From IMG/VR virus record IMGVR_UViG_3300010885_055964, positions 1-64,000 of that record: DNA of 64,000 nt. One strand, given 5' to 3'. This document shows, in pieces, positions 875-64,000 of the stretch (position 1 is its first letter; each line of letters opens with the position of its first letter). A program made the translations under genes and the position numbers. Source of the DNA: a virus. Below the pieces are notes generated by a model. The model was not told the DNA's origin. It saw only the letters and a program-made list of their open reading frames with translations, and made no database searches.

Positions 875-2626
875 TTATGTTTTGACCATTTGGTATTTGA
901 TTACTTGGATATGTGTGGTGTTGCACCAATGTAATTTGATGCCTGTACCTTCTATTACTCTAAAACGACCTACTGGTGGTCTACCATGTACCACTAAATC
1001 AAGCATCTTATCATTGTCGTACCCCACAGTCACGAAAGTGACTTTGTAGGTTTTTGACTGTCCGTTCTTTGTTTTTCTCTCCCCGGTATATTTTCTATAA
1101 GTAGCGACTAATCCTCTGAATGTAACATAGGTTTTGTCATCTTCTCCTATCCATTCCTTGTAGTAACAACCATCTAGAAACTGATCATCTATCCAATACC
1201 CATATTTGGCCAGATCTGACTTTTGCCCGGATGAAGCGTAAGTTTCAATTCCGACTATAGTGTCGTGTTCAATACGCCATGGCGGCTTGCCTAGAGTCAA
1301 CTTCAGACCGGATGCGACAGCATGCCTAAAGAATACCCATTTTTCATACATTGATTCGCAATGATTCAATGCTGTTAACCAGAATTGTTGTGGTTGTCGG
1401 GCTTTCTGATAAGCGAGTGCCCATACCAATTGGCCGTAAGAAATAGCATGTGATTTGCAAAAAGAATATAATGATAGCCTTTTAAAATTATCTCTGATTA
1501 ACTGCTTATCTTCTTCTGATGCTATTCTAGACATCAGCTCTTCTATTTGGTCTTCTTTGTTTTTGGCGAACGCTCTTCTGTAATTGTCTGCTTGTGCTTC
1601 TGTGCAGCCAGTCAATTGTCTGAATTTATCTATCGCATCATCATCGAAAACCAATACAGGATCATGTCCATTTAATATTTTGTCTTTATTACCTTCGGCT
1701 GCTGCTGCCGGTCTTAGAAGTGCTAATGCAAAGGCTACATCCGATCGGCTTTTAGGCTTCATGGACGTGAATATCTTCCTCATAGCAGGTGACTCTGCTA
1801 TGGTGATACCCATATTATCGCCTCTTGATAACAGGTCGCTGGTCGCTGTATCCTCTTCTGGATATTCTGACAGACCTCGTGAGCTTAAATCGTTGAGCTG
1901 GGCTAATGCTCTATTAGATAGTATGTCTATTTTGATCAAGTTCTTCTGTTCAACTTGGTCCTTATTTAGCTTGATCTGATTTCCTTTGAGTATCCATTTG
2001 GGTGGGATGCGTTGATCGAAGATTACTATACCACCACAATGAAGTGAAAATCCTCTGAATGTGTTGCATAGTCCAGCTGCTGTTTGTATTACTTGCTCTA
2101 ATGTTTCTCTACCCAATATCTCCTCTAGATCTGCGTATTTGCCAAACTTTTTCCTATAACCATGTCTTCTAATGGCCTCTCGGATCGCTGATTTTTCTTT
2201 GTAGTATAGATGATTAGATATTCTTGCAACTCTGTGTTTGCCAAAGTGGTCATATATTCTTTGGAAGACATCTTCTCTTCTATTGTATGGAAAGTCTATA
2301 TCGATGTCTGGATTATCGATTCTTTCTTCGTGCATAAATCTGGCTAACGATATGTTATATAGTATTGGATCTATATCTGTTATTCCCAATAGATAGCATA
2401 CTAGTGAGCTACCTGCTGAACCTCTTATCACGTGGGGTATGTCTTTAGTTAACTCGAGTATGGTTTTTACTTGGATGAATGTATCGGTAAAATTCCTATC
2501 TCTGATTAATCGTAGCTCTTGCCTGAGCCTTTGTTTATATGTCTCGTTTTTGGGTAATCGTCTGGTGAAGCTAGATATAATAGTCTGCAGCTTAGATATA
2601 TCGTCTTTCATACTTATCAAATACAC
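875..2626 (-). CDS. Compact DnaE-family DNA polymerase III alpha-like protein lacking the PHP domain
   Basis: A 583-residue C-family DNA polymerase. The core is clear: RGSAGSSLVCYLLGI at residues 68-82, the catalytic aspartates in PDIDID (106-111), and the third aspartate in KIDIL (D234). The late SFCKSHAISYG segment matches the DnaE fingers region, and a C-terminal ~120 residues look like an OB-fold (TFRGLVATYRKYTG). Unlike cellular DnaE (~1,100-1,200 residues) it has only about 65 residues before the core, so no PHP domain, and no clamp or tau-binding tail. It is distinct from the split DnaE at 54.6-60.0 kb. It could be a translesion or repair polymerase, by analogy with DnaE2; that is inference. 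The start may be GTG at 2626 or ATG at 2611; neither has a strong binding site. Confidence 0.85.
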   Translation of the reverse strand: MYLISMKDDISKLQTIISSFTRRLPKNETYKQRLRQELRLIRDRNFTDTFIQVKTILELTKDIPHVIRGSAGSSLVCYLLGITDIDPILYNISLARFMHEERIDNPDIDIDFPYNRREDVFQRIYDHFGKHRVARISNHLYYKEKSAIREAIRRHGYRKKFGKYADLEEILGRETLEQVIQTAAGLCNTFRGFSLHCGGIVIFDQRIPPKWILKGNQIKLNKDQVEQKNLIKIDILSNRALAQLNDLSSRGLSEYPEEDTATSDLLSRGDNMGITIAESPAMRKIFTSMKPKSRSDVAFALALLRPAAAAEGNKDKILNGHDPVLVFDDDAIDKFRQLTGCTEAQADNYRRAFAKNKEDQIEELMSRIASEEDKQLIRDNFKRLSLYSFCKSHAISYGQLVWALAYQKARQPQQFWLTALNHCESMYEKWVFFRHAVASGLKLTLGKPPWRIEHDTIVGIETYASSGQKSDLAKYGYWIDDQFLDGCYYKEWIGEDDKTYVTFRGLVATYRKYTGERKTKNGQSKTYKVTFVTVGYDNDKMLDLVVHGRPPVGRFRVIEGTGIKLHWCNTTHIQVIKYQMVKT

Positions 2627-20492: not shown

Positions 20493-23400
20493 TTACCAAC
20501 ATTGGTCTGGCTTAGTGGGATCACAATCCGGCCAGTTAAAGCGATTAGGCAAGATCTCGTTCGAGCGTATATGAGCAAGTATCCTATTGATACTACTCGT
20601 ATCGTTTATTTGTTTATGAATCAAGACTATTCTCATTTTTGTAGATGTTACCGTGCTAAAATCAGTCTCAAATATCTCAGCCCCATCCCGTAAATATGGA
20701 ACATATTCATTAGGTCTGAGTCCCTTAGACGCAGCTAATTGTTTTATCGTCCTGTTATTACTCGGGTCGAATAGATCTCTTTCGATCTTGATTCTCGTAG
20801 AAACATTTAGTATGTCTGGTATCGAATCTGGACCACAACAAGGCTCTAGTACAACTGGTGCATCTCCTGGTTCAGGGTGGCACAACAGGGGGCCATTATC
20901 ATAATCGTACTGTTGTCCGTTGTCACATGTCGGCAAAGGATATAAATATGGTGGTGATAATACTTTCTGTAATGCTGATGGGTCGCATATGAGAGTCTGC
21001 TCAAACACTGGTTCTACTATAGGCACGTTACCGAATTTGCTTTTAAACTCAATTAAATAACGATAATTCTGTTCCGATAGTGTCCTCGAACGCTCAGCGA
21101 TTGTTACGTCTCCTACGACGAAAGGAGGTAATGCGGTAATGATCTGCTGTAACGCTTCTGTCGACACGTTCCAAGGTATAGCAGGTGTCTGGTAGGTATT
21201 GGGCCCGACTGTTATCTTCAATGTGTAAGTGCCTCTATTGGCACGTGATACAGTTAATAATTGCTGCTCTCTGATACCGTTGCCCTGCTCTAATACTCGT
21301 ACAGTCGCGGTGCCGCCTTTAAGTTGGATGCCATTTAGCTGCGTCAACGGAATATTCTGTCTTACATATTGACCTTTGAACTCTAATTTATATGTATAAA
21401 TTCCGTTGTTGGCATCTCTAATGACGCTGGTTACCGATAAATCATTAGCTGTTAACCATGGTATTACCGTAACTATGGCTGTCTTCAATTGGGAAGGTGT
21501 CGCATTGAAAACTATACTATTGGTATTGTATGTGATTGGACTGGTAGCTGGACTGGTAAATGAAAGCTCATATGTACCATCTTTAGCATTTACTGTCACT
21601 AACTGCTGCTCATTCACGCCACCGCCCACACCTCCATTCCAGTCGGTAATAATCGTATAGTCAGGTTGTGGTTGTATTGTCATCTCACCCACGTTTTGCC
21701 TGCTATAGTCTCCGATGAATGATAACCTATATGGTCCTCGGTAGACAGCATCGCGGTCACTTATGTCCCCATCTACCCTTAGGTTACCTGAACCTATATT
21801 AGACATACCAGTCAATATGCTGGTTATCTGATTCAATGAGGCGTTGTGTTGTATGTTCTGACTGGTTATACCGCCAAATGTTACAGTAAAGTTGCTTGTG
21901 CTTTGATTTGTATTGGTGATAGTCTTCTGTTCATTAGTAGTGCCGTCTACGATTTTGCTCACGAATGAGTCTGAAGTGCCTAATAACCTTGACACATCTA
22001 CGATAATGGTGTTCTGGTTAATTGATCCTAATTCGTTAATGAATTCTATTACATAAGGGTCGAGTGCGGTACCCTCACCAGTCACTAATATATTATTACG
22101 ACCACCAGTGATAGATAGGCTACCGAATCTATTCCTTACGACGCTTGCAGTAGCACCGTACTCTATTAACACCGATTGTGTCTGGCCTGCATTTCTCCAC
22201 CTTAGTTCCCACTGACCACTAACTGCATTCGGTAGTGTGATAGATTGCTTCTCATTAACACTTAAACCATCTACTACCAAATCGATTTTCACATTAGCAC
22301 TACAAGGATCGTATACTACTCCTTTGCCGGTTATAGTTAATCGATTCAAAGACAGGTCACCGTTGCCTTCTGGCTTATTACAAGCAAATGTAGTAATATT
22401 GGCTGGGTTACCATTAATAACACCATTGCCAGACGCATCAGCCATTACTTGAGCAGGTGCATCATCGCTCTGTGTTGCATATTCCCAATAACCCGGATTG
22501 TCGCCATTATAGTAAGCTGCCTTGTACCATTCAGCTTCTGTAGGTAGATGGTACTTAGCATTTTCATTAGGTTCTACGACATTAGTGCCTTGCAAATGAT
22601 ATGCTCCGTCCTCTGTGGTGGTTAGATCCTGTTGACCACTGGGCTGGCCATTATGTAACCAATTGCAATATCTAGCGCTTGCAAACCAATCTACATAGAC
22701 TACAGGTTTGTCATCCATATCCTCAATTATATCATACGTATAGTTGCCCTGTGTCCCACTCCTGGTTATTCCTCCATAAGTTGGCGACCCAGCTGGTCGA
22801 CCCATTCTTATGTCATACAATCCATATGTGTCTGTCTTAGCGATACTATTTAGAAAGACTACATAATCACAGTTGGTTACAGCGAATTTGGCGATATGGT
22901 AAGGATATGATACGGCACCAACACCTGACGAGTCATTCTGATTGTCAATATCTTCTACGCTTACCATTTGTGGTAAGTCGAATGGATTTGGACTTTCGTA
23001 ACGACTGGCTATTCTAAATCCTATATTGTATTTCTTGTCTGATGCAGTTAGCGTATCTTTATATCTCTTAAATAATGATTCTGGCGTGCTTACATTAGCA
23101 CCTCTGACACTGCTTTTGTCTGTATCACTCGCTTGTGCGGTGATCCCAGCGTCATCGCTCATACCATTCTTTAAGCTGAAGCTAGTTAACGTAATCGATG
23201 CGCCTATATAATGGCTTATTCCATTGCCTGCACATATCTTTATATTACTGTCAATGTCGACTATTTTAGTCAATGGTAATGAACTGAATCTTTGTCCACC
23301 CCAAAACCATACTTGGCCATTTCTTATACCCAAAGAATGAGCATATCCAGCACTTATCTTAGTCCATCCGGTAGAACTCGCAGGAGGGCGTACTTGAGAA

Positions 23401-28167: not shown

Positions 28168-28603
28168 TCGCTGATTCCTCTCTTGGAGGTGAGAGCATAT
28201 CATCTATAATCTGATGAGCAGATGTAGCAGTAATCGTATATTGATATTTTATTTCATGCCTGACGATTCTAGTTAGTATACCAAATCGTGGCATTGGGAT
28301 CTTTAATGGTAGATTATTTGAAACTACTTCATCTTCGGCAGCAGCGTGGAACCACCATCTGAGTGCTTGAGCTGATGCATAACTATATAAGCCGCAGTTT
28401 ATCATTTGACCAGAGCTATCATAACAACCCGGATTAGGCACACCCTTATCACCGCGTGAAAATTCTAACTTAACCCATTTATCTCCGATCATATTACCAT
28501 TAACTAAAGTAGGCCCATGCGGAGAACGTGCCTCGACAGTATATCCTATTTTGGTGCCGGATCCATTACTTCGATCTGCTTTGTAATCATCTTCTAAATT
28601 CAT
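28130..28603 (-). CDS. Hypothetical protein
   Basis: 157 residues, AGGAGCG upstream of the ATG. Gly/Asn-rich N-terminal half; LYSYASAQALRWWFHAAAE is a distinctive helix, followed by beta strands (HEIKYQYTITATS). Its end overlaps the TIM-barrel gene and its start overlaps the PurZ-like stop, so all three are coupled. Not recognised. Confidence 0.55.
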   Translation of the reverse strand: MNLEDDYKADRSNGSGTKIGYTVEARSPHGPTLVNGNMIGDKWVKLEFSRGDKGVPNPGCYDSSGQMINCGLYSYASAQALRWWFHAAAEDEVVSNNLPLKIPMPRFGILTRIVRHEIKYQYTITATSAHQIIDDMLSPPREESANEPRDKWVYSAK

Positions 28604-29877
28604 TGCTCGCTCCTAAACGCAGTGTCGCGAAAGCAAACATGATTGTTTTGCGGGCCGGTACCGACAATAGTAACAGGAATCTGTGCTACATCCTCGACTC
28701 GCTTAATGAACTGCTTCACCTTGGTCGGAAGTCCATCGAAATCATTTGTTCCATAGCATGACCAATCAATATAGTTTGCGAAGTTGAGTGCTATCTGAGT
28801 GGCACCATTAATCGTTACAGCGTCACGTAGCTGTTCATCCGAGAAGGTGAATACTCTACGTAATCTTTTGGTTACAGTCGTTAGTTCTTTGTCGGCCAAC
28901 GTTGGAGGTGCACCAGCTTGTTCAGCAACTTCTTTCCAACTGATTTCCTTCTGTCCTTCATAAACACCACCAGAGTGACCGACTACTACACCATCTTCAA
29001 CCACGTTACCAACTCGGATTGGGTATGGCCTGATGACCAAATACACATCTCCCATACGCTTGGCTGACAGACCCATATCAGCTAAGTTCTGTACAGCTGT
29101 GGTTCCTCTACTGGTGCACTGAGGGTAATGAGAACCGTGATTAATATCTAACGAAAACCCTTGTGATCCTTCATGCAGAATAGTAAAGCCATCACTCAAC
29201 AACATATCCAAAGACACAGCTATATTCCAGGGCCAAATGTAATTATTATATCCTCCAGCAACCACATACTTTGCTAATTCGGGGCAATCTCTAGCCAATA
29301 TCAGCCCGACCCGACGCATAACTTTATCTGCAAGAAACGCACCACATCCTTGCATCGTACTAGCTATATGCTTTGTACCATCAGTTGAGTTATTTTCTCT
29401 GATTCTTTGTTCATCAGTTATTACTCCTGCTCTTTCGTGAATCCAGATCTTGTTTTCAAGATTGCATTCCTGTATCTCTTGTAACAGCCTTTCAAGGTGA
29501 AATGCGGCTGTTGCGCCTATATAGATTAATGGTCTGTAAGGAATTGGGATGTTGTTATTCACAGCATTCACAGCTTCATCAACTGAATCACAAGGTATTG
29601 GATCAGTAGCGTTATGACTTCCCTCCCTCCACCCGGTCAATCTAGGCTTGACTACCCAAGGCTGAGCAGCCCATTTATTAATAGCCGCACACGATGGAAC
29701 TGCCTTAGCAACAAATGCATCACCTAGATTATTGACTGCGGTATGGCCGGCATTAGCCATGTTAGTGGTTGATATGATTTGTGGTTGATAGCGGTACGCC
29801 AAAGCAGTAGAAATCAAGCCTTTACCGCAAGAACCCCATTGTCCGTCTGTCACAACATTAAACTTTTGCTTCTGCAT
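28600..29877 (-). CDS. purZ: Adenylosuccinate synthetase homolog, PurZ-like
   Basis: 425 residues, the normal PurA/PurZ length; GGAG upstream of the ATG. The GTP loop reads DGQWGSCGKG (residues 11-20): where PurA has the catalytic Asp of GxQWGDEGKGK, this protein has Ser16. NAGHT (42-46) with the catalytic His is kept, as are HEGSQGFSLDINHG and the later CTSRGTTA. Replacing that Asp by Ser is the published hallmark of PurZ, which condenses dGMP with Asp on the way to dZMP (2-aminoadenine). The symbol is therefore tentative. No DatZ or MazZ homolog is evident in this window, so a full Z-genome pathway is not shown. Confidence 0.72.
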   Translation of the reverse strand: MQKQKFNVVTDGQWGSCGKGLISTALAYRYQPQIISTTNMANAGHTAVNNLGDAFVAKAVPSCAAINKWAAQPWVVKPRLTGWREGSHNATDPIPCDSVDEAVNAVNNNIPIPYRPLIYIGATAAFHLERLLQEIQECNLENKIWIHERAGVITDEQRIRENNSTDGTKHIASTMQGCGAFLADKVMRRVGLILARDCPELAKYVVAGGYNNYIWPWNIAVSLDMLLSDGFTILHEGSQGFSLDINHGSHYPQCTSRGTTAVQNLADMGLSAKRMGDVYLVIRPYPIRVGNVVEDGVVVGHSGGVYEGQKEISWKEVAEQAGAPPTLADKELTTVTKRLRRVFTFSDEQLRDAVTINGATQIALNFANYIDWSCYGTNDFDGLPTKVKQFIKRVEDVAQIPVTIVGTGPQNNHVCFRDTAFRSEQ

Positions 29878-52923: not shown

Positions 52924-53253
52924 ATGGACATTATACACATCATATTATGTTTGCTAGTGTTATCACAAGTAATCGCGCAACTCATCACATTGGTACTACT
53001 ATACAAGATATATTACATTTTTGATAGATTTAGATTTCCCTGGGAAGAGATCAAGGCTATAACAAATGCTTGGAAAACCACAATACCCCCAAGCGATTTC
53101 TCGTCAAACAAGGATATTACGCCAACTACGGGAGCTAAAGCAGCTAGCACAGTTAAAGAACTCCCACCAGAAGCAATTGCCCCCAGTCTTAAAAGAATGC
53201 AAAGAACATCAGGCTTCGGTTCCGGTATTAGTGACAAGAACAGTGATACATAA
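52924..53253 (+). CDS. Small membrane protein
   Basis: 109 residues. One strong hydrophobic segment at residues 4-29 (IIHIILCLLVLSQVIAQLIT and onwards) with an uncleaved-looking start, then a Ser/Thr/Pro-rich polar tail. Probable single-span inner-membrane protein. No binding site is obvious. Not further recognised. Confidence 0.55.
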   Translation: MDIIHIILCLLVLSQVIAQLITLVLLYKIYYIFDRFRFPWEEIKAITNAWKTTIPPSDFSSNKDITPTTGAKAASTVKELPPEAIAPSLKRMQRTSGFGSGISDKNSDT

Positions 53254-53425
53254 GTTTACTCAACAGGTGACCGTACGCAGAGAGATTAAAGTAATAATCA
53301 ATAGCGATCGTCCAAGACCATGCCAATTACCAAAAGATAGTGCGATACAGCCTGATATTGACCACGCGGTTGATGAGTTACAAGTATATAGGCTAGGTGA
53401 TGTCTTCAACGGCAGGAGAGTAGTT

Positions 53426-54508
53426 ATGCAACACTTAGGCATCGATGTGGGCACTAAGACTATAGTTTTAGCATATAGATCAGATGATAAGGTAGGATAT
53501 CTGTCAGAAATTAATGGCTATTACCCTTTCGAAAGGTGTACACCATTTATCAAGAATATGCTCAATGATCCGAATAAGGTACGGTCTGATGGCACCAAGA
53601 GACCAGCTAGGTGGTTCGAACACGATGGTAAGGCGATCGTATTAGGTAGAGATGCTGAAGAATTCGCATATGCTAAGAACGATACATTATTGAGACCAAT
53701 GGCTGAAGGCGGCATAGCAGCAGATGAAGCGGCTATGACCGTGTTAGCTGCTATAGTTCAGGGTTTAATGACTATGGCTGAGCATGATGTAGGAAAGTTC
53801 GATGATCAAGTTAAGCTATGTTATTGTACTACTGCTAAAGCGATAAACAAGCATTCGAATATAGATTATCATCAGAGAGTCGTTAATTTGGTTCTCGAGG
53901 GTTATGATACCAAGGCCAAGCTATCATATAATTCGATATATGAATCCCACGCTATTGTTATAGACATGAGTGAAGACGGTACTGGAATAGGGATATCATG
54001 GGGGGCAGGTACTGTAACTGTTAGCTACGTCAAGTACGGTTTAGAAGTATACTCTTTCTGTTGGGTAGGTGCCGGTGATTGGATAGACTCACAAGTAGCA
54101 TCTAGGCATGGGTATGATCCAAATGCTGTAAACACTATGAAGAAAAAGGCGAAGGAAACGCCGACAACTGTGGCCAAGAAGAAGACTGAAGTAGACTTGA
54201 CTCCGGGTGTAGATTATAGTAATGATAGATTAGCGATGGATATAGTGCTTCATTACGACGTGCTTATAAATCAAGTGATAGAAGGCATTGTTGAAGGCTT
54301 TAAGCAGAACGAGTCTGAAGCGAGAATTGAAGGTGCTGTGCCTATATTTATGGCTGGCGGCACCTCGTCGCCAGTTGGTTTCGTAGAAAGATGCGCTGAA
54401 AAGTTAAATCAATTAGAACCGCCTTTTGAAGTAGGAACTATCAAAAGGGCCGAACAGCCATTGTATTCCGTAGCGACTGGCTGCCTAAAGGCAGCTGAAA
54501 TGTTTTGA
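53426..54508 (+). CDS. Actin/Hsp70-superfamily ATPase
   Basis: 360 residues from ATG 53426, which has AGGAGAG 7 bases upstream. LGIDVGTKTIVLA (residues 4-16) is phosphate-binding loop 1, IVIDMSEDGTGIGISWGAGTVTVS the second phosphate loop region, and PIFMAGGTSSPVGFVER near residue 306 the adenosine loop. These are the three hallmarks of the actin/Hsp70/ParM fold. Family members in phages make filaments that position DNA or the phage nucleus-like structures, or act as chaperones. Which one cannot be told. Upstream DNA 53254-53425 stays open in the same frame, so a longer start is not excluded. Confidence 0.75.
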   Translation: MQHLGIDVGTKTIVLAYRSDDKVGYLSEINGYYPFERCTPFIKNMLNDPNKVRSDGTKRPARWFEHDGKAIVLGRDAEEFAYAKNDTLLRPMAEGGIAADEAAMTVLAAIVQGLMTMAEHDVGKFDDQVKLCYCTTAKAINKHSNIDYHQRVVNLVLEGYDTKAKLSYNSIYESHAIVIDMSEDGTGIGISWGAGTVTVSYVKYGLEVYSFCWVGAGDWIDSQVASRHGYDPNAVNTMKKKAKETPTTVAKKKTEVDLTPGVDYSNDRLAMDIVLHYDVLINQVIEGIVEGFKQNESEARIEGAVPIFMAGGTSSPVGFVERCAEKLNQLEPPFEVGTIKRAEQPLYSVATGCLKAAEMF

Positions 54509-54613
54509 CATAATATGTGACGGACTGCATTTGTATTCTGGTTAGTATTGATATGTGTTTGTATCGAAGTGGCCATTGTATTCAAAAGCAAAAACTTTCA
54601 ATAGATATGAACA

Positions 54614-56062
54614 ATGGCATATGATCCCAAAGATTATAGTGGTTCTACGCAATTTGTACATTTGCACAATCACACTGTATTTTCTGCTCTGGATGGTGTA
54701 GCCACTCCAGAACAATACGCTAAATTATGCTCTGAGCGTGGGTATCCTGCTATGAGTGCTACTGAGCACGGGCATATGGCATCGGTACCCGACATGTACT
54801 TGGCGTTTAAAAAATATGGAATCAAGTATATTCCAGGATGTGAAATATATTATAATGACTGGGAACCGCATAGACAAACGCTGGAACAAAGCGGAACAAA
54901 GGTCAGATCTCCCGAATGGAGAAAAAATAATCCTGATATTTCTGCTAGGATATCTAGAAACAGACATTTAACTATATTATGTAAAAACGAAGTAGGATAC
55001 CATAATTTATTAAAACTTACTACTCAAGCATATGAGACTGGTTTATTCGGCATGGGTAGGACGCAGTATAACCGAATATGGTTTGAAAAGCTATGTGAGT
55101 ATAAAGAAGGTCTTATTATATTATCAGGCTGCTTAAATGGCCCAATTAGTCATGAACTTAGGCATCGCTTCCTTAAGGATAAAGAAGGCGTCAAGATTTT
55201 CGAACGAGATAAACAACAAGCTTTCAATGATGCTATAAAATATGTAAAGATGTTTAAAAAAGAATTTGGTGATGACTATTATATAGAATTACAGATGCCT
55301 GGTATTGAAGCCATTGATAAGTGGGGCGAAAAAACGGTAAGTGATGATGCTGTCTTCAAGTGGTCAATAGCTATAGCCGATAAATACAATATACCTGTCG
55401 TTTTGACCAATGATTGTCATTATTTAGATCGCAAAGACTTCGAATTGCAAAAGCTTATGATGGCTGTGGCTCAAGAAACAACTATGGATTCTCCCGATTT
55501 ATTTCATGTTAATAGTAGTGAGCAATTCGTACAATCTAGAGCTGAATTGTGGTCTAGATTTAAAAACAATAAATATAGCGAAGGTATAGACGATAGAATA
55601 TTTGAAGTGATGTGTGATAATACATTGAAAATAGCAGAAAAATGCGTAGCATTTGATGTAGACACGTCCCCTAAGATACCTGAAATAGATAATGCTGATG
55701 ATTCTATCAAGCAGATCGTAGCCAAACGCTTAAAGGAAGGTGGATACGATAAAATAACTAAGAGATATTTAATAGACGGAAAAGAAGTGACATACGTTGA
55801 GCAAGCTAAAATAGAATTAAATAGATTTATCGATAAGGGATATTCGAGTTATTTTTTAATAACTCAAGATCTTGTTAACTATGGTAGACAAAGAGGTTGG
55901 CCGTTTAGCCCAAGAGGCAGTGCTGGTGGTTCTTTGGTGTGTTTCTTGATGGGCATCCATACGTTGAATCCTATGTTGTGGGGTCTATCGTTTGATAGGT
56001 TTTTATCACCTAGTAGAGGTGGTTATATGTTAAACGTAGACATGCCAGATCCAATCAGTTGA
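54614..56062 (+). CDS. dnaE: DnaE DNA polymerase III alpha, N-terminal fragment (PHP domain and palm start)
   Basis: 482 residues. PHP domain with VHLHNHT (H16, H18, H20), ATEHGH and IPGCEIYY; then the thumb/palm entry with AKIELNRFIDKGYSSYFLITQDLVNYGR and SPRGSAGGSLVCFLMGI. It ends FDRFLSPSRGGYMLNV-DMPD-PIS, that is, immediately before the catalytic PDxDxD motif, after which three codons and a stop follow. It therefore has no catalytic aspartates. The rest of the enzyme is encoded by the gene starting at 57290. The two must assemble, or the first may act as a free PHP nuclease/proofreader. Confidence 0.92.
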   Translation: MAYDPKDYSGSTQFVHLHNHTVFSALDGVATPEQYAKLCSERGYPAMSATEHGHMASVPDMYLAFKKYGIKYIPGCEIYYNDWEPHRQTLEQSGTKVRSPEWRKNNPDISARISRNRHLTILCKNEVGYHNLLKLTTQAYETGLFGMGRTQYNRIWFEKLCEYKEGLIILSGCLNGPISHELRHRFLKDKEGVKIFERDKQQAFNDAIKYVKMFKKEFGDDYYIELQMPGIEAIDKWGEKTVSDDAVFKWSIAIADKYNIPVVLTNDCHYLDRKDFELQKLMMAVAQETTMDSPDLFHVNSSEQFVQSRAELWSRFKNNKYSEGIDDRIFEVMCDNTLKIAEKCVAFDVDTSPKIPEIDNADDSIKQIVAKRLKEGGYDKITKRYLIDGKEVTYVEQAKIELNRFIDKGYSSYFLITQDLVNYGRQRGWPFSPRGSAGGSLVCFLMGIHTLNPMLWGLSFDRFLSPSRGGYMLNVDMPDPIS

Positions 56063-56088
56063 TTTATTACAATTGCTGGAGTCATTAA

Positions 56089-56580
56089 ATGACAGAGACA
56101 AAAGATTTAGAAATAGCGATTAGCGAACTTAAGCATTCTATAAAGATTCATCTGTTAATAATGGCAGGTCCGAGCCAGCAGCTTTGTGCTTTTTTGGTAA
56201 AAACGATCGATTTATTAGAAGATGATGATATTCAAAGGAAAAAGCAGGAAACATTGTTGTTGGCCTTTAGTATCGTAGAGGCAATAGCGGTGCATGTTCA
56301 ACAGGCGATTGATGCGAGGGGCCAAGTAGCGAAAAACAAAGGTAATCATATGCCAGAGAATGTCAGATCTTATTCTGATAATATATTAATAACGTTAGGC
56401 CAGGTAAGAGGACTAAATGACAAGAGGGTGGCTAAAACGGCTGTGCTTGTCGCTATAGGCAAAGCATTAGATGCTCTGGGGACATTTACTGGCGCAGTAT
56501 ACCCTACGATTTTTGAAGTTGATGGACGTCAGCTGAATAATCACCAGACAAGACCCGGAGAACAAGCGGAGACATTATGA
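56089..56580 (+). CDS. Hypothetical protein in the dnaE interruption
   Basis: 163 residues; GGAG precedes the ATG. Helix-rich with LEIAISELKHSIKIHLLIMAG, LLEDDDIQRKKQETLLLAFSIVEAIAV, and a Gly-poor C-terminus. No homing-endonuclease or intein motif can be seen. Its stop overlaps the next start (ATGA). Confidence 0.55.
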   Translation: MTETKDLEIAISELKHSIKIHLLIMAGPSQQLCAFLVKTIDLLEDDDIQRKKQETLLLAFSIVEAIAVHVQQAIDARGQVAKNKGNHMPENVRSYSDNILITLGQVRGLNDKRVAKTAVLVAIGKALDALGTFTGAVYPTIFEVDGRQLNNHQTRPGEQAETL

Positions 56581-56831
56581 AGGATTTTAGCTGGTACACC
56601 GCCGTTATTGTATTCGTTATATATATATTATTCGATATATTATATGCTCTTTATGTCATGTGTGTTAGTCAACAAAGAGCTTTGCGGGCTAGTGTTATAA
56701 GCTCGATATTATATAGCATAGGTGCATATGGGGTTATGAATTATTTAGAGAATCCATTGTACATTATTCCCTTAGCATGCGGTGCGTTTATAGGCACTTT
56801 TATTGCTGTGAAATATATGGGCCATTTGTAA
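56577..56831 (+). CDS. Small three-helix membrane protein
   Basis: 84 residues with three hydrophobic segments (TAVIVFVIYILFDILYALYV, ALRASVISSILYSIGAYGVM, PLYIIPLACGAFIGTFIAV). ILYALYVMCVSQQRALRA and NPLYIIPLACGAFIGTFIAVK resemble a short membrane family seen in phages and bacteria. Possibly a small transporter-like or holin-type protein; not proven. It is within the interval that splits dnaE. Confidence 0.6.
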   Translation: MKDFSWYTAVIVFVIYILFDILYALYVMCVSQQRALRASVISSILYSIGAYGVMNYLENPLYIIPLACGAFIGTFIAVKYMGHL

Positions 56832-56873
56832 TTAGGCAGATTGAATAGCGGAATAACGTGTATTAGGAAGAAC

Positions 56874-57293
56874 ATGAACATCAATTATGAGAAGACTGCC
56901 TTTGTGCTGATCAAACCTCCTTCTAAGGTAGTTTCTACACATAAGATCAACAACAGGCATGAGCATATCAAGCTAATCGAGACAGCTAAACATAATGAAT
57001 TGTTGCTATATTATTCCCATGTCATAAAAAAAGGAAATAAATATTACACTGATCAACCGTTAATAGTTGATGAAGAATCAGCTAAAAACTATATCGATAT
57101 GTTCTCTGACAACACAGAGAAGGAGGACAGTGTTGAAGTTCAGCCCAGTGTTCAGGTCGCACCGCCAATCACAGAAGAACGGTCGCTTGTATGTCCTTTT
57201 TGTAATAAAAAAATGTCAAGCACACCGGGGCGGACTTTACACATTAAATCTAAACATCCCGATAAGTTAGATGAGTACAAGGGCATGCTATGA
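56874..57293 (+). CDS. C2H2 zinc-finger protein
   Basis: 139 residues from the ATG at 56874 (AGGAAG upstream). C-terminal CPFCNKKMSSTPGRTLHIKSKH is a clear C-x2-C-x12-H-x4-H finger. N-terminal ~95 residues have a helix-strand pattern with HIKLIETAKHNELLLYYSHVIKKG. Its stop overlaps the start of the C-terminal DnaE gene (ATGA), so translation is coupled. It could bind DNA or act with the polymerase. Confidence 0.65.
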   Translation: MNINYEKTAFVLIKPPSKVVSTHKINNRHEHIKLIETAKHNELLLYYSHVIKKGNKYYTDQPLIVDEESAKNYIDMFSDNTEKEDSVEVQPSVQVAPPITEERSLVCPFCNKKMSSTPGRTLHIKSKHPDKLDEYKGML

Positions 57294-59995
57294 AGAATTG
57301 GGATCAGATAAAGGAATTAGCTTATCGAGTAGTGTCCGATCGTGGTCTAGATAAAAAATATCAAGAACGTTTGGCTTTTGAAATTATTGAAATAGAAAAA
57401 CAAGGTGCTAGTGCTAAGTGGGAAATATATTATAACGATAATAAGAAATTCGCTACCAATCCAAATAATTTAGTGTTACCGTGGTTATTAAATATGGTTA
57501 ATGAGGATCCTATACTTAGTAGGAATGATATTATATTAAACACAGTTAGAGCATCAAAAGTCAAAGAATACCGAGCCAAATATGGGAGTATTCCTTCTGA
57601 TTTTATTAAAGATACAGACATGCCAGACATTGATCTAGATTGCTTACCAGAAGCTAGAGATCCTATTAAAGAATATGCCGCTAAGACATATAGTATGGGT
57701 ATAACGGATGGATATGGTCCTGTCTGTTCTGTAGGAACTTGGCAGACTTATAAATTCAAAAACGCTATTATTGATGCTTGTGCTGGAACAGGATTGGTGG
57801 ATAGAAGTGTAGCTTTCGAGCTGACTACTCAATTGCCAGATGAAGTCGATCAATTAAAAGACGGAGGTGAGGCCGCTTGCAAAAACCGCATTATTGATAA
57901 TGGAGAGGAAAAAGAATGCGGATTTATTCATAGCTTAACCGAATGCCCAAGATGTGGTTCAGCAGACACTGATGCCCCAACCATAGGTAAGTTATTACAA
58001 GAATACGAAATATTAAGAAATTTCGCTTCTACGCATAAAACAGTAGTTGGATATGCTGTTAAACTGGTGGGTCGTGTGCGTAATATGGGCATGCATGCTG
58101 GTGCTCTCATAATAGCAGATAGGTCACTATTCGGTAATATCCCAATGGCTAAAAGCAGCAGCAAAGGCTATTGGGTCAGTATGTGGACAGAAGGCCGCAA
58201 TGCTCAATTATCTAAATTTGGATATAATAAATGGGATATACTTGGTCTCAAAACACTTAAATATATTTTTGAATGTTGTAAATTGATAGAAGCCAATCGC
58301 GGTATATCTTTCGGACCTAACATGGAAGGATGGGACTATAACGATCCCGAAACCGGGATAGCAGGATGGTATATTGATGGAACCGGAAAGAAATGTGATA
58401 TATTACTTAATGACGAACATACCTTAAGATTAGCTAACGAATTAAAAACAGATGGTGTTTTCCAATTCGACACAGATTTAGCTAAACAAATATTATCGAA
58501 TGGTGTACGCAACTTCGATGACTTAATGTTGTTTAATGCTATGGGCCATCCAGGCCCAATGGCTTCGATTCCAGAAGCAGTAGAAAATAGAGATAATTTC
58601 AAGAAAGATTGGCGATCTGCTTTGCCTAAACCTATTTATGAAATATTAAAGTATACATATGGTGTAATCGTTTACCAGGAGCAATTGCAAGCTATTTGGC
58701 AGATAATGGCAGGGTTTACAGCTCCCGAGGCCCAAGAAGCACGTAAGGCTGTAGCCAAAAAATGGACTCATAAACTAAAACCCATAAGAGAAAAATGGCT
58801 TAAGGGTGCGAGCAGGTCTATGAGTGATAAGGATGCAGAAGCATGGTGGGCCAAAATGGAGACATTCGGTCGTTATGCTTTCAATAAAAGCCACGCCGTC
58901 AGTTATTGTTTGGTAGCTCATAGATGTCTTTGGCTCAAAGCTCATTTTACACCAGAATGGTGGGCCGCAGTGATGAGCGATTGCCACCAAGAAAAGCTAG
59001 TAAGATATATGGGGATAGCTAGGTCTGAAAAATGGAGGCCGACCGAAATCACTTATTCTGGGAAACATCGTCCTGCTAAAAAATCGGATGGAGTCATATT
59101 TGATACGCTAAATTTAGAAAATATGACAAGGAGTTTCACTGTAACAGGAGACACGGTCAATCAGGGCTTAATCGGAATAAAAGGTATAGGGGAAACAGCT
59201 GCTGTAAAGTACGAGCGAAAAGGCGTTTATGCGGACATCGACGAGTTTATTACAAAAACAGGTGGAAAAGATAAAGCCGCATGCGAGCGGTTCATAAAAT
59301 TGGGTGCTTTCAAATATATGCAAGGACATAGCAATTCGAAGGCTGTATGGACATGGTATCAATATAAATATTGCAGTGGGAAAGATATTACTGCACTTAG
59401 GACAACTATCAAAGAGCAATTACTAGCTGCAGAAGGATGGAATGATCAGACTATCGAGCAAGAGAGAAAAAGGCAGATCACTGAATACAAGAAGGCTTAT
59501 CCTAATAGAAGGAAAGTTCCTGAAAAGCTAATAAATTGGAAACCGAGTCCAAATGATTCTCGTGATAATGTAATGGCATTGGTAACTGAAGACTTCTCTC
59601 TTGTGGAAGTGCTGCAGTTTGAGAAAGACTATTTAGGGTATTATTTACATTCTCCTTTAGATCTATACGAGTGTAAGGGACAATGCTCTATTGAAACAGC
59701 TAAAGATTATTCTACTAAAGACACATCAACCAGATTAGAAGGAGTTATCGTAAGCGTAGATTATGGTAAGACCAAAAATGATAAAGATTTCGCTAAGATA
59801 ATAATAAGTGATGGTATACAACAGACATTAGTCTTAATGTGGGAGTCAGAAATCAAACATCAAAATCAAGATACATTAAAACCAGGCGTAGGAGTACAAT
59901 TATACGTCAATTATGACCCTACTAGAAATATCTTCTCAGTAGCAAGAAATGAAGCTATTCTTAGACTAAAACGGAAGCAACATGCAACTAGTTAG
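57290..59995 (+). CDS. dnaE: DnaE DNA polymerase III alpha, C-terminal fragment (catalytic core)
   Basis: 901 residues. The catalytic motif MPDIDLD at residues 111-117, third aspartate in KWDILGL (~316), and the polymerase fingers including NKSHAVSYCLVAH (~540) are intact; a Cys-rich insertion CGFIH...CPRCG lies near residue 205-225, and a C-terminal OB-fold-like region (LEGVIVSVDYGKTKNDKD) ends the protein. The first ~110 residues resemble a degenerate copy of the region before PDIDID, lacking the GPGRGSA-type loop, which is supplied by the N-terminal gene. Together the two fragments make one full replicase. Confidence 0.92.
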   Translation: MKNWDQIKELAYRVVSDRGLDKKYQERLAFEIIEIEKQGASAKWEIYYNDNKKFATNPNNLVLPWLLNMVNEDPILSRNDIILNTVRASKVKEYRAKYGSIPSDFIKDTDMPDIDLDCLPEARDPIKEYAAKTYSMGITDGYGPVCSVGTWQTYKFKNAIIDACAGTGLVDRSVAFELTTQLPDEVDQLKDGGEAACKNRIIDNGEEKECGFIHSLTECPRCGSADTDAPTIGKLLQEYEILRNFASTHKTVVGYAVKLVGRVRNMGMHAGALIIADRSLFGNIPMAKSSSKGYWVSMWTEGRNAQLSKFGYNKWDILGLKTLKYIFECCKLIEANRGISFGPNMEGWDYNDPETGIAGWYIDGTGKKCDILLNDEHTLRLANELKTDGVFQFDTDLAKQILSNGVRNFDDLMLFNAMGHPGPMASIPEAVENRDNFKKDWRSALPKPIYEILKYTYGVIVYQEQLQAIWQIMAGFTAPEAQEARKAVAKKWTHKLKPIREKWLKGASRSMSDKDAEAWWAKMETFGRYAFNKSHAVSYCLVAHRCLWLKAHFTPEWWAAVMSDCHQEKLVRYMGIARSEKWRPTEITYSGKHRPAKKSDGVIFDTLNLENMTRSFTVTGDTVNQGLIGIKGIGETAAVKYERKGVYADIDEFITKTGGKDKAACERFIKLGAFKYMQGHSNSKAVWTWYQYKYCSGKDITALRTTIKEQLLAAEGWNDQTIEQERKRQITEYKKAYPNRRKVPEKLINWKPSPNDSRDNVMALVTEDFSLVEVLQFEKDYLGYYLHSPLDLYECKGQCSIETAKDYSTKDTSTRLEGVIVSVDYGKTKNDKDFAKIIISDGIQQTLVLMWESEIKHQNQDTLKPGVGVQLYVNYDPTRNIFSVARNEAILRLKRKQHATS

Positions 59996-60551
59996 TAAAG
60001 ATGGAATAGCATGTGATCAATGTGGTACCACTCATAAATTAGACTTTACATATTATTCGTTCGATTTCAGGGTCGTATCCGTCATATCAGGTAGAAGGTT
60101 AGCTTTAAGGGAATTATTAAGATCTAAGATAGTTCACTCGCTGGACATATGCCAGCAATGCTATGACAATATAAAAATGGAAGTGATTAAAAACTATCAA
60201 TCTACTATGACTAATGATGTGAGAAAACGGGGTACGAGTAATACGGTAATTTGCGAAATTAGTGGTAGGAAAATATTAGGTGCTAACTATAATTATTATT
60301 TATGTTGTGTGACAGAAGTAAATGTGTCTACATCAGGCCAGCCCAACATTTGCACAACATGCAGACAACAGACTAGAGATAGTGATAAAATATGTAGCAA
60401 TTGCAAAGGTAGCTCGTTTACAAGGACAGCTAATACCTCGACATACGATAGATTACTCGATATAAATGTATGTCAGGAGTCATTTAAAGATATGGTAAAT
60501 AAGTCAGAGTTGGTGAAAAAACAAGCGTCAGAGTGGTCTACTAATAGTTAG
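59982..60551 (+). CDS. Multi-zinc-ribbon hypothetical protein
   Basis: 189 residues, its ATG lies inside the end of the polymerase gene. CDQCGTTHKLDFTYYSFDFRVV, DICQQCYDN, CTTCRQQTRDSDKICSNCKGS supply several CxxC pairs. Likely a zinc-stabilised protein tied to the replicase by overlap. Function unknown. Confidence 0.65.
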   Translation: MQLVSKDGIACDQCGTTHKLDFTYYSFDFRVVSVISGRRLALRELLRSKIVHSLDICQQCYDNIKMEVIKNYQSTMTNDVRKRGTSNTVICEISGRKILGANYNYYLCCVTEVNVSTSGQPNICTTCRQQTRDSDKICSNCKGSSFTRTANTSTYDRLLDINVCQESFKDMVNKSELVKKQASEWSTNS

Positions 60552-60559
60552 GGATAAAA

Positions 60560-61156
60560 ATGTATAATCCATATGACCTAGTTAAGATCAAGATAAATGG
60601 CAAAGAGACATATGGTAGACCTGTGGCATTCGACTCTGACCCAATAAACATACATACTTTGAAAAATAAGGATGGTGAGCTAATTAAGCCGATTTTATTG
60701 ACTAGTGCCTGTCCAGATTGTGGCCAAGGCCTTGAGATTAATATAAGCCAGGGTGAATGCCCATCAGGAGTGTATATTGAATGCCACCTGTGTAAGGATA
60801 AATCGAAAATCAAGGTCGGAACCGTTAATAGGTTCAGGAAAAATGAGGAAGCACCAACAGATGAACCACTGCTTTGTAAAAATAATGATATTTGCAATAT
60901 CGACACGACAGTAGAACAAAGATTCGATATGCCTGAAGAACAACACCCAGATGTCGCTTCTGAGACTAAAGACGAACCCAAGCAGAACATAAAGAAAAAT
61001 AAGAGAAGTAAGAAGAAGACAGACATTAATGAGCAAACCAATGCCGACCCAGTAGGATTCGTTAATGTACCTCCATTAAAGAAGAGGATCGAATCAGCTC
61101 AAGGCTTAACAGAGGAAGTAGAAATAGACGACGCAGACATGGTCGAATTAGAATGA
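60560..61156 (+). CDS. Hypothetical zinc-ribbon protein with Lys-rich region
   Basis: 198 residues; GGGAT upstream. The first half has CPDCGQGLEIN...CHLCKDKSKI, a zinc ribbon. A basic NIKKNKRSKKKTDIN stretch (~residues 140-155) and an acidic C-terminus follow. Overlaps the next gene by 4 bases. Function unknown. Confidence 0.6.
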   Translation: MYNPYDLVKIKINGKETYGRPVAFDSDPINIHTLKNKDGELIKPILLTSACPDCGQGLEINISQGECPSGVYIECHLCKDKSKIKVGTVNRFRKNEEAPTDEPLLCKNNDICNIDTTVEQRFDMPEEQHPDVASETKDEPKQNIKKNKRSKKKTDINEQTNADPVGFVNVPPLKKRIESAQGLTEEVEIDDADMVELE

Positions 61157-62100
61157 AAATCATATTAGGTTCAGGCATAGTAGGACTAATAGCTAAGTTG
61201 ATATTAGGTCCCTCGTGGACGATAATCCCGTTTTATAGAAGCAGGTTTTATAGCTTTAATCCTTCACTAGATGATAACTTCATAATAAGGGATGAACTAA
61301 TAGATGATGTTATAAAGCAGATAACGCAAGAAATCAAATTGTCAGTGTTCGAATATAAAAGAGCTTGGTCGATTGGCGGGCAAATATTACCAGACTGGAA
61401 TGAAGCTATATGTAGTGATTGGTTATACAAGATATTTGGCGATAAGATACCTCCACAATCACAGATTTATAATAAACAAAAAATGACTTTTGGTGTATAT
61501 GATTTGAGAATAAATGATCTATATTCTAAATTAACTAACATATATATAGATGAATTAAAACAGCAATCGGCAGTAGGTAAAGTTACAGAGATAGGAGATC
61601 ATTATATAGTAAGGAACGGTGTGAAGAGCGATTTTGAGCAGGCCATAAACACCATACCTTTAAACCACCTGGCGAGCCTATGTAAGTTATCTATAAATCT
61701 TCCTTGTAAAGATATTCATTACTGGCATGTAAGAACTAATGATTTAAATTTTGAAGGATATAATCAGTTATTGGTCGCTGATCGTCTGTTCGGCTTTTAT
61801 AAAGTGACTAATATAGCACCTGGTAGATTTATGTTTTATTGCCACGAAGACATACCGAATCCTGGTACGTATCTAATGGGATTTATGCAAAAGTTCGAGA
61901 TAATCGATGGTACATCTATTCCGGAGGCGATGCCTTTAGGCCCGATGCCAGAATTGCAAATATTGGATCAAATGGGCATATTTAATGTCGGAAGTTATGC
62001 ACAATGGGATTGGTGCTCTGATGTGGGTAGCAATATACTAAAATTAGTAAGGTTTGCTAATAGGGGCTATGTCAATGCTAAACCAAAATATATTCACTGA
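61153..62100 (+). CDS. FAD-dependent oxidoreductase-like / UDP-galactopyranose-mutase-like protein
   Basis: 315 residues. ILGSGIVGLIAKLIL is the N-terminal Rossmann FAD/NAD-binding loop (GxGxxG) and the closing AQWDWCSDVGSNILKLVRFANRGY is like the C-terminal FAD-contact helix of NAD(P)/FAD-binding amine oxidase/UGM-type enzymes. Short for the class (usually 370-450 residues) with few motifs in between. May modify a sugar precursor; assignment is to the fold, not the reaction. Confidence 0.55.
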   Translation: MKIILGSGIVGLIAKLILGPSWTIIPFYRSRFYSFNPSLDDNFIIRDELIDDVIKQITQEIKLSVFEYKRAWSIGGQILPDWNEAICSDWLYKIFGDKIPPQSQIYNKQKMTFGVYDLRINDLYSKLTNIYIDELKQQSAVGKVTEIGDHYIVRNGVKSDFEQAINTIPLNHLASLCKLSINLPCKDIHYWHVRTNDLNFEGYNQLLVADRLFGFYKVTNIAPGRFMFYCHEDIPNPGTYLMGFMQKFEIIDGTSIPEAMPLGPMPELQILDQMGIFNVGSYAQWDWCSDVGSNILKLVRFANRGYVNAKPKYIH

Positions 62101-63242
62101 TACATAATAGGATAAGAACGATTTAGCACAGTTAGTCTATTATATAATAATCGGTGTATCATAAACATGTCGAATAATATAGACTGATCAACCATACCAG
62201 CACCTAGTAGAGAAAGATGTTCGACAATACATTGTTCCTGCTCGGTGATATTAGATAATACGAATTTCCACTCTTTAAGTGGGATATTCGATTTAGCCAT
62301 TAGATGATCTCGAGTATCGATGGGTTCGAGTATTCCGCCTAATGAACTAAATGACTCATGAGTAATGAACCCTTTTACTTTATTCCACAGGTGGGCACCA
62401 CCATGATTAGAGCAATGATTGTCTTGCCATAATAAATGTGGAGCGGTATTCCTTTGATTAGAAAAAGGTGCTGTGTCTATCTCAATCGCATATGCATTAA
62501 CAGCACCACGCCAATAAGACGACTTAGGAGGAAAACGCCCTTCGTCGGTGTATGGCTCTGTCAATCGTTCATATCCATGCCTGATGAATATGGAATCTCG
62601 ATTAATATAAAAATATGACAGGACAGGCCTTAAATATAAATAGAATGCATCAATAGTCGATTTAATGTCTTTATCTAAAATGCCATATGTATATGCATAT
62701 CTGCCATCCACCCATTGTCGATGGTCATCATATCTTCTTAATTCTATGCGATCCGCCTTGACTAATGTCCATTCGGTCTGTTGATCAACTACACCAGAAT
62801 GGCGGTATGTGATAGGTTGCAATTGATTGTAGAAGTACTCGAGATGTGTGTCATGGAGTGGTTGTGCATAGCCATTTGTTTTAAGGAAATCGTGCAGAAT
62901 GATTGATACCCAAGTATGTGGATTGATAGTTGAATCTATAAGATAAGCGATAATGCAGCTGCAGATGCCATGGAAGAATCCATGTTCGACATCGTTAAAG
63001 TATGCTTGTATCATTGATTGGTCGAATGGCTTAAATGGGGTTAGATATTTGTTTATTTTGCTATAGTTATGGATTACATTTTTTTTATTAGTATGGGCCA
63101 ATCCTAGCTCGGTTAGGTATTTGATGTTACCGAAAGAACACCTAGTGCATAGGTCATATTTGATCTTTTTGAGACAGACAGATATAGAAGTGTATTGTTT
63201 AAGACATAATTGTCCACGTATATGTTGGTCGAGAGAGGCCAT
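62094..63242 (-). CDS. HD-domain-like hydrolase, uncertain
   Basis: 382 residues from the ATG at 63242, which has GGAG 7 bases upstream. FFHGICSCIIAYLI, ILHDFLKTNGY and HDTHLEYF place a His, His-Asp and later Asp in an order reminiscent of HD phosphohydrolases; VKADRIELRRYDDHRQW could provide the last Asp. C-terminal half is unassigned and Cys/His-containing (WQDNHCSNHGGAH). It converges on the FAD-like gene with a 7-base overlap. Confidence 0.45.
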   Translation of the reverse strand: MASLDQHIRGQLCLKQYTSISVCLKKIKYDLCTRCSFGNIKYLTELGLAHTNKKNVIHNYSKINKYLTPFKPFDQSMIQAYFNDVEHGFFHGICSCIIAYLIDSTINPHTWVSIILHDFLKTNGYAQPLHDTHLEYFYNQLQPITYRHSGVVDQQTEWTLVKADRIELRRYDDHRQWVDGRYAYTYGILDKDIKSTIDAFYLYLRPVLSYFYINRDSIFIRHGYERLTEPYTDEGRFPPKSSYWRGAVNAYAIEIDTAPFSNQRNTAPHLLWQDNHCSNHGGAHLWNKVKGFITHESFSSLGGILEPIDTRDHLMAKSNIPLKEWKFVLSNITEQEQCIVEHLSLLGAGMVDQSILFDMFMIHRLLYNRLTVLNRSYPIMYQ

Positions 63243-63303
63243 GTGATTCTCCACTTAAGTATATTTTAGTGATATGTAGCACAAGTAATTATATTGGTGT
63301 ATT

Positions 63304-64000
63304 ATGAAGCATAGTAGTCGTAGAAGCTTTTACGAATCAGGTTTGAGGATAAATAAGCACTCTAATGATAGGTTATCGGAAGAGATAGAAGAATTCGATT
63401 GGCACAATAAGAATATTATAATAACAAAGGTTAATAAACCTAAACAATTGATAGTCGCTGGTTTAACCGAAACAGAAGTAGAGCAGAAGGATAAATTTAT
63501 AGGACAGTTATACACCGCATGTATGACTTGCTCTATTTGCCCTATCGGAACCGAGTGTGTTAGTAAAGACGGTATTTATAGGGATCCTCACTTATTGAGC
63601 AATAGAAATATTTCGAAATATGTTATGGTGTGTGATAGACCAACGTGGGATGATATTACTAATAGGGATAATGATGGGCATGCTAGCGAAATAGAAAAGT
63701 TAACGCAGGTCAAAGAAATATTAGATAGATTATATATAACATATCTTGTTAAATGTAGTAGCATTGATAGAGGTGATTATTACGAAAATTGTCGCCCATT
63801 TATACAATTAGAAATGAATATATTAAAACCCACATTAATCATATCATCAGGTCAGGAACCTTTCGATAGACTCAAGGCAGATAGTAGTTTAGAATATAAA
63901 GATAATGTTAAGAAGATAACGAATAGTATATTTAATATTAAAATGCTAACCATAGCGGATATATCTGACGTACGATTTATTGATCATATAAAAATAGTAA
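63304..64000 (+). CDS. Partial uracil-DNA glycosylase superfamily-like protein (3' end off the window)
   Basis: An open frame of 232 codons from ATG 63304 to the window edge without a stop. After a polar N-terminal ~60 residues, CMTCSICPIGTEC resembles the Fe-S ligands of family 4 glycosylases, followed by KYVMVCDRPTWDDIT where active enzymes have V-x-x-G-E-x-P-G, then DRLYITYLVKCSS and NILKPTLIISSGQ, the third and fourth conserved strands. The lack of a Glu in the GEAPG position suggests a diverged or inactive member, or a protein that only binds DNA. Distance from the divergent HD-like gene is ~60 bases of AT-rich promoter DNA. Confidence 0.55.
   Translation, partial: MKHSSRRSFYESGLRINKHSNDRLSEEIEEFDWHNKNIIITKVNKPKQLIVAGLTETEVEQKDKFIGQLYTACMTCSICPIGTECVSKDGIYRDPHLLSNRNISKYVMVCDRPTWDDITNRDNDGHASEIEKLTQVKEILDRLYITYLVKCSSIDRGDYYENCRPFIQLEMNILKPTLIISSGQEPFDRLKADSSLEYKDNVKKITNSIFNIKMLTIADISDVRFIDHIKIV

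Follow-up and report, generated by a model that had tools for sequence, protein, structure and literature searches.

Active-site motifs of a phage DnaE polymerase divided between two separate genes

The stretch of DNA analysed here, called the window, comprises bases 1-64000 of the 178,026-base virus record IMGVR_UViG_3300010885_055964. Within it lie two genes, N and C, that together carry the parts of a DnaE-type (PolIII alpha) DNA polymerase (Table 1). They are separate and complete, share a reading frame, have a start and a stop codon each, and are set apart by three small genes. The break falls where an earlier note, made from the sequence alone, had placed it: N runs out in a tail ending DMPDPIS, and the motif DMPDIDLD is found in C. 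The profile matches of the two products are complementary. N matches the PHP family PF02811 (4.3e-35) and positions 4-99 of the 260-position palm model PF07733; C matches PF07733 from position 99 to 260, PF17657 (5.1e-29) and PF14579 (4.5e-6). On the whole-protein model TIGR00594 (1022 positions), N covers 1-397 and C covers 397-1020, and each scores under the cut-off of that model, as expected for halves. The PHP, palm, fingers and HHH parts of a C-family polymerase score over the cut-offs of PF02811, PF07733, PF17657 and PF14579 and are spread across N and C, with the palm itself shared out over the two genes. Replicative polymerases normally keep the palm in one chain.

Table 1. Features of the divided polymerase locus and the second DnaE-like gene, in positions of the window
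Feature	Position	Strand	Basis
N gene: PHP, thumb and first palm half of DnaE, 482 aa	54614..56062	+	PF02811, PF07733, TIGR00594
RGSAGGSL loop (GRGS motif), N residues 434-441	55913..55936	+	motif comparison
Repeat copy 1, in the N tail (DMPDPIS)	56038..56049	+	
Intervening gene 1, 163 aa, no known family	56089..56580	+	
Intervening gene 2, 84 aa, hydrophobic	56577..56831	+	
Intervening gene 3, CxxC zinc-finger-like end, 139 aa from ATG	56874..57293	+	zinc-finger matches below cut-off
C gene: catalytic palm half, fingers, HHH, OB, 901 aa	57290..59995	+	PF17657, PF07733, PF14579, AlphaFold2
N-terminal segment of C: putative degenerate thumb/palm-1 copy without GRGS loop	57290..57622	+	alignment, profile matches
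Repeat copy 2	57616..57627	+	
PDIDLD catalytic motif, C residues 112-117	57623..57640	+	
Codon of C residue D316 (KWDILGLK)	58235..58237	+	at least 90% conserved in 101-row alignment
Second DnaE-like gene, 583 aa: palm complete, PHP absent	875..2626	-	

The active-site motifs are divided between N and C. The RGSAGGSL loop of N is the GRGS motif, which we take to bind the phosphates of the incoming deoxynucleoside triphosphate (dNTP). Among the relatives, the RGS-loop motif is present in 18 of 19 N frames, the nineteenth (L040; G and L numbers are our own labels) being broken there by an intein-like stretch, and in none of the 19 C frames ahead of the catalytic motif (searched as RGS[AG] in the frames with that motif). 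Conversely, 19 of 20 C frames have PDxDxD (the exception is a short frame of L025), and it is missing from all 19 N tails. C also carries D316, presumably the third catalytic aspartate, and the nine positions that we take to be PHP metal ligands are all occupied in six of six N rows (alignment A2). This reciprocal loss, with the GRGS loop only in N and PDxDxD only in C, is our main argument that the two proteins would assemble in trans.

The division is widespread among relatives. As the earlier note had proposed, we looked for fused and split forms, collecting relatives with N and with C as queries and surveying PF07733 in 30 virus records. The palm is divided at about model position 98/99 in 25 of these and undivided in five distant ones. 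Some records are near-copies (G030 and the window; L012-L013; L043-L045; L046-L047), so that the 25 represent fewer lineages. Identity over the longest matched segments, the near-identical record not counted, is 43-71% for N and 36-67% for C. N lies upstream of C on the same strand in 23 of the 24 records with both genes (the G006 record begins inside C), and 764 to 3231 bases separate them at the 16 loci measured, window included. In G016, N (plus strand, at 145 kb) and C (minus strand, at 87 kb) are about 58 kb apart, with a relative of intervening gene 1 upstream of C; if that record is rightly assembled, N and C can lie apart. An assembly error appears unlikely as the source of the split, given that a second record, which may come from the same sample, covers 53712-64000 and differs from the window at 2 of these 10,289 bases, and that the relatives agree. 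Taken as a whole, the observation of a split polymerase is confirmed.

Phylogenies were built with 15 bacterial and 18 viral undivided DnaE rows, hand-picked from 80. In the C tree (52 rows, quick method, three of 20 C frames omitted as too short), the 17 split rows form one clade with a Shimodaira-Hasegawa-like approximate likelihood-ratio test value (SH-aLRT) of 100, and this clade adjoins the intact DnaE of the 595-kb phage LR756511 (L005) with SH-aLRT 97. The N tree (44 rows) omits eight of 19 N frames, namely L040, L047, L049 and five without an F[VM]HLH string; its 11 split rows again form one clade (SH-aLRT 100), with no resolved neighbour and with LR756511 flagged as a long branch. Because the split rows form one clade in both trees, the split is old, and it is not a recent insertion. 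In a tree of the first palm half (palm-1), the C copies form one long-branched clade on few columns, which gives no order of age between the copies.

The C protein holds an additional segment ahead of its catalytic motif. The earlier note counted about 110 codons, together with the three small genes, as the content of the interval; the genes are there, but these codons appear to be a diverged palm-1 copy and no unrelated filler. In a 101-row alignment (A4, which holds near-duplicates, L026 and L180 being one gene), the first ~110 residues of C align with the thumb and palm-1 of 77 undivided DnaE rows, and an 11-column gap at GPGRGSxxGS is shared by all 18 split C rows covering that place. Relative to undivided DnaE, the segment has YxxRLxxE, YW for YF, and LVLPWLLG...DP for SLVAYLLGI..DP. 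The deepest branches show the resemblance most clearly: the C protein of L043 matches PF07733 over positions 2-260 of 260 (2.7e-34), and that of L042 aligns from residue 1 with an intact phage DnaE (1e-45). Overall, the C frames of seven records match PF07733 from model position 2-8 and the other C frames begin at 99 or later. From its residue 7 onward, the C protein of the window aligns with one intact DnaE (H11; 25.8%, 8e-38). Taken alone, the segments of L041, L042 and L043 match PF07733 at 3.6e-4, 5.8e-3 and 1.4e-3, all below the Pfam cut-off. AlphaFold2 with A4 as input models C with a mean predicted local distance difference test score (pLDDT) of 92.4 and a predicted template modelling score (pTM) of 0.85, compared with pLDDT 47.3 from five rows. 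The model has a DnaE fold (5lew, Z 22.4, root-mean-square deviation 10.5, 532 aligned; 2hnh, Z 21.4, deviation 5.2, 488 aligned), and OB matches lie at residues 793-897. From the alignments, we interpret the segment as a palm-1 copy that has diverged.

N and C are under purifying selection. Between L012 and L014, the ratio of nonsynonymous to synonymous divergence (dN/dS) is 0.016 for N, 0.017 for the catalytic part of C and about 0.07 for the segment. Across the seven pairs compared, in most of which dS is saturated, the dN of the segment exceeds or falls short of the C core value by factors that range from 0.8 to 3.9.

Replication genes accompany the pair. In 13 records searched for them, none known to be complete, DnaB is present throughout, at most 20 kb from the C palm in 12 and 46 kb from it in G007. 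In G002, the N and C palm parts, dnaB and a family A polymerase gene all lie within 15 kb. Family A polymerase matches, in frames of about 390-470 amino acids, occur in 12 of the 13 records (11 over the cut-off) and not in the record of the window (G000). Replication genes near C fit a replication module of the phage with the split polymerase at its centre. The earlier note took an intact separate DnaE elsewhere in close relatives as evidence against its reading. Of the six split records that reach 200 kb or more, five show no other C-family palm; the sixth (G001) and the record of the window have a further DnaE-like gene whose palm is whole, but this gene is strongly diverged and without PHP. 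It occurs in these two of 26 split-carrying records, many of which are fragments, and the G001 copy is L057, 487-2166 on the minus strand. Both copies match phrog_11778, the C half of a minimal split family (0.0026 for the window, 2.3e-8 for L057), which none of four other DnaE or C proteins tested matches; their match to phrog_11127, the N half, is one common to intact DnaE. This compact gene is possibly an unsplit form of the minimal polymerase.

We consider it fairly probable, at roughly 70%, that N and C form a two-subunit DnaE-type (PolIII alpha) replicative DNA polymerase that arose by duplication and reciprocal loss in the ancestor of a large-phage lineage. In this scenario dnaE was duplicated, either entirely or over its 3' part alone. 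The upstream copy would have lost everything from the catalytic PDxDxD onward, and the downstream copy would have lost PHP, most of the thumb and the GRGS loop, with its shrunken first palm half staying as a scaffold. The two products would associate non-covalently, N lending its phosphate-binding loop to the C palm and setting PHP, possibly a proofreading nuclease, beside it. Duplication with reciprocal loss is favoured because it explains the split clades, the loop-less palm copy and the divided motifs in one event. With somewhat less assurance, at slightly better than even odds, we picture an obligate heterodimer with its active site formed in trans, in which N supplies the dNTP-phosphate loop and a PHP proofreader and C supplies the aspartates on a palm with a hollowed-out copy; duplication and reciprocal loss would have left it stable in the lineage, with the breakpoint seen in the minimal polymerases of jumbo phages. 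The earlier interpretation as a whole is partly supported. Its suggestion of a partial duplication followed by divergence fits a C protein with a diverged palm-1 copy, and its two-subunit, non-covalent polymerase is the best-supported reading given the complementary motifs and the selection on both genes; the association itself, like heterodimer formation and activity, is what we infer from sequence.

Several observations weigh against this explanation. The homology of the window's own segment is mostly indirect: PF07733 is not found in six of ten segments taken alone, the window's among them, and that of L028 reaches only 0.13; a tblastn search of annotated phages with the window's segment gave no match at E up to 10; and profile-profile comparison of the segment with the N palm-1 is weak (E 0.012, probability 3.6%, 59 columns). 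The structure adds little on this point because only 5lew and 2hnh among the ten best DnaE rows include the segment in the superposition, the other eight beginning at residue 95 or later, and the intact-DnaE rows of A4 may have biased the model towards giving the segment that fold. If C keeps a palm-1 remnant, the palm-1 of N must share its place or displace it. Finally, a sliding clamp (beta-clamp model PF02767) was found in none of the 13 records, and the family A matches, together with the PHP-less DnaE in G000 and G001, are further candidates for the enzyme that copies the genome.

Other explanations can be weighed against the same data. C alone could be the polymerase, its GRGS loop no longer needed, with N a stand-alone PHP nuclease that carries a leftover palm half. 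The confident DnaE fold of C with its own remnant would suit this, as would the assigned PHP metal ligands of the N rows. Yet a leftover would decay, whereas 18 of 19 N frames retain the RGS loop and N is strongly constrained; loss of the loop in C with retention in N is what complementation predicts. We thus regard this alternative as unlikely. It is more doubtful still that the pair is decaying and that the PHP-less DnaE or a host enzyme replicates the phage: a second gene does exist in G000 and G001, but it was seen in no more than those two of 26 split-carrying records, many of them fragments, the split genes are under purifying selection, and dnaB lies near C. Alternatively, the gene may have been cut first and the palm piece gained later by C. 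This is possible, though it needs more steps than duplication with reciprocal loss.

The earlier note had also proposed an insertion with target-site-like repeats, which would amount to a mobile element or gene cassette entering at PDIDLD and leaving a 12-bp repeat. The repeat, AGACATGCCAGA, is real: it is exact, has two plus-strand copies in the window, and is in the same frame at both edges, each copy encoding D-M-P-D. Within 54614-59995, six different 12-mers recur (three of them overlapping in one longer repeat) where 2.06 are expected (5-95% range 0-6), but a 12-base match at the homologous place exceeds all 200 random pairs, the longest of which is 8, and is more than chance there. That relatives have intein-like stretches in these genes, at other conserved motifs, would also suit an insertion. 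However, a target-site duplication should be common to carriers, and the repeat is private to the window. Among the 16 split contigs that include both ends, no other has it: the remaining 15 have 4-6 bases in common at the two edges, and the 95th percentile of random pairs is 6 to 8. N tails with MPDP occur in L049 and L023 as well, L049 lacking the DNA repeat (L023 lies outside that test), and other tails read LNVKLPEFK, LNVKMTKGD, LNVKMPSPIN, LQVTM and more. Since a scar would be expected in more carriers, the repeat is an unlikely scar of the split event. Nor is a simple insertion supported, because it would leave no diverged copy of the upstream palm half in C. Removing the interval restores the motif, as the earlier note said, but the spacing from RFLSPSR in the N tail to PD is then 9 residues, against 3 in most intact rows. 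The interval genes differ among relatives, no intein or Hint domain matches N or C at E up to 1, in agreement with the earlier note, and no Rfam family reaches its gathering score in 54000-61000. An insertion, with the split being old, is therefore very improbable. In our judgement slightly less credible still is the joining of the chains after expression into one DnaE by a split intein or RNA trans-splicing. The break at a conserved motif and the intein-like stretches in the gene family could be read in this way, but N and C have their own start and stop codons, no intein or Rfam intron was seen in them, and the joined product would hold two palm-1 segments.

Intein-like stretches occur in the N genes of L040, L046, L023 and L049 and in the intact DnaE of L048, with PF14890 below its cut-off in all five (1.1e-5 in L040) and with Hint_2 and LAGLIDADG_3 over their cut-offs in L049. 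All these but one were noted at RG|S of the GRGS loop (4/5 among L040, L046, L023, L049 and L048), and the near-copies L046 and L047 differ in the presence of the stretch. The C genes of L039, L043, L046, L047 and L049 are interrupted at FNK|SH.

The three intervening genes were described as translationally coupling N to C. ATGA overlaps at genes 1-2 and at gene 3-C bear this out in part, but N and gene 1 are 26 bases apart, and the start of gene 3 lies 9 or 42 bases past gene 2, depending on whether a TTG at 56841 (giving 150 amino acids) or the ATG is used. Gene 1 has tblastn relatives in 13 related records and none in the most distant ones. At the second intervening place, where the window has its small hydrophobic protein, L039, L042 and L043 have RNase H-like genes (PF00075 in three of five relatives' genes tested; E 3.4e-5, 0.0018 and 0.0029, below the cut-off). 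Directly upstream of N, at 53066-54508, lies an actin-like Volactin-family protein (PF25216, 7.1e-43), relatives of which stand upstream of N in many related loci. Elsewhere in the window, 28600-29877 (minus strand) encodes an adenylosuccinate-synthetase family protein whose best NCBIfam match, PurZ (7.8e-63, below cut-off), is nearly tied with the adenylosuccinate synthetase model (1.9e-62); 2-aminoadenine (Z) DNA is a possibility. A 1692-amino-acid protein with RCC1 repeats and an FGE-sulfatase domain is encoded at 20493-25571 (minus strand), and 5958-7328 holds a sulfatase-like gene, judged by eye.

A DnaE spread over two genes has several counterparts. In cyanobacteria, dnaE with a split intein likewise forms two genes; N and C are without an intein domain. 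The nearest unsplit relative in the C tree, the uncultured phage LR756511, has a single chain of 1179 amino acids with GRGS and PDVDVD together, as found with a one-frame-palm regular expression that was used for this locus only and failed to detect at least one palm known to be intact (Djokovic gene 66). Ten annotated phage loci include two with DnaE in two genes, Gordonia phage Djokovic (genes 64 and 66, both annotated DnaE) and Bacillus phage vB_BpsS-140 (two unannotated open reading frames), but there the cut lies at the PHP/thumb domain border and the second protein has the whole palm. Seven of the ten have one long coding sequence, and Lactococcus AM1 has two named DNA polymerase. On the intact DnaE of L026, PHROG 7513 ends and PHROG 12219 begins at the N/C cut point, which hints that more phages are divided there.

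The lineage described here allows one to test how an essential enzyme turns into an obligate complex via duplication and complementary loss. In practice, it may inform split-polymerase design, and "truncated" phage dnaE genes may be read as real subunits. A split DnaE palm as such is already known. The PHP-bearing form with a palm copy is undescribed so far as our searches of open-licence PubMed Central papers show, and passages of PMC7412058, PMC8504454 and PMC12926913 contain no split DnaE like the N/C pair. According to Iyer et al. 2021 (PMC7824862), group 2.2 jumbo phages, among which Agrobacterium phage Atu_ph07 is placed, have a split minimal PolIII alpha whose halves were proposed to reconstitute the enzyme, with the genes distant and alongside a family B polymerase. 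In the 13 records here, which may be incomplete, no family B polymerase (PF00136) was found. We compared Atu_ph07 and, by our own choice, Escherichia phage 121Q. In both, the DnaE palm is cut at the matching place into NTP-binding and metal/template-binding proteins, as in that account: the 121Q and Atu_ph07 N pieces end NEFLKW and SEFLE, with PF07733 matches to model positions 95 and 98 (98-99 here), and the C pieces begin ...TDIDIDF and MKNIPDIDIDF. Their pieces are small, however (177-180 and 191-212 amino acids), lie 30 and 180 kb apart, and have no PHP and no palm-1 copy ahead of the C motif. The pair described here keeps PHP, HHH and the full C-terminal part, its genes are mostly neighbours, and about 110 residues of a putative loop-less palm-1 copy precede the catalytic motif in C. 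Whether the cut shared with the minimal phages reflects common origin or not, it makes assembly in trans more credible, and its recurrence in a second, minimal phage family suggests that the border within the palm is a place where the enzyme can re-assemble from two chains.

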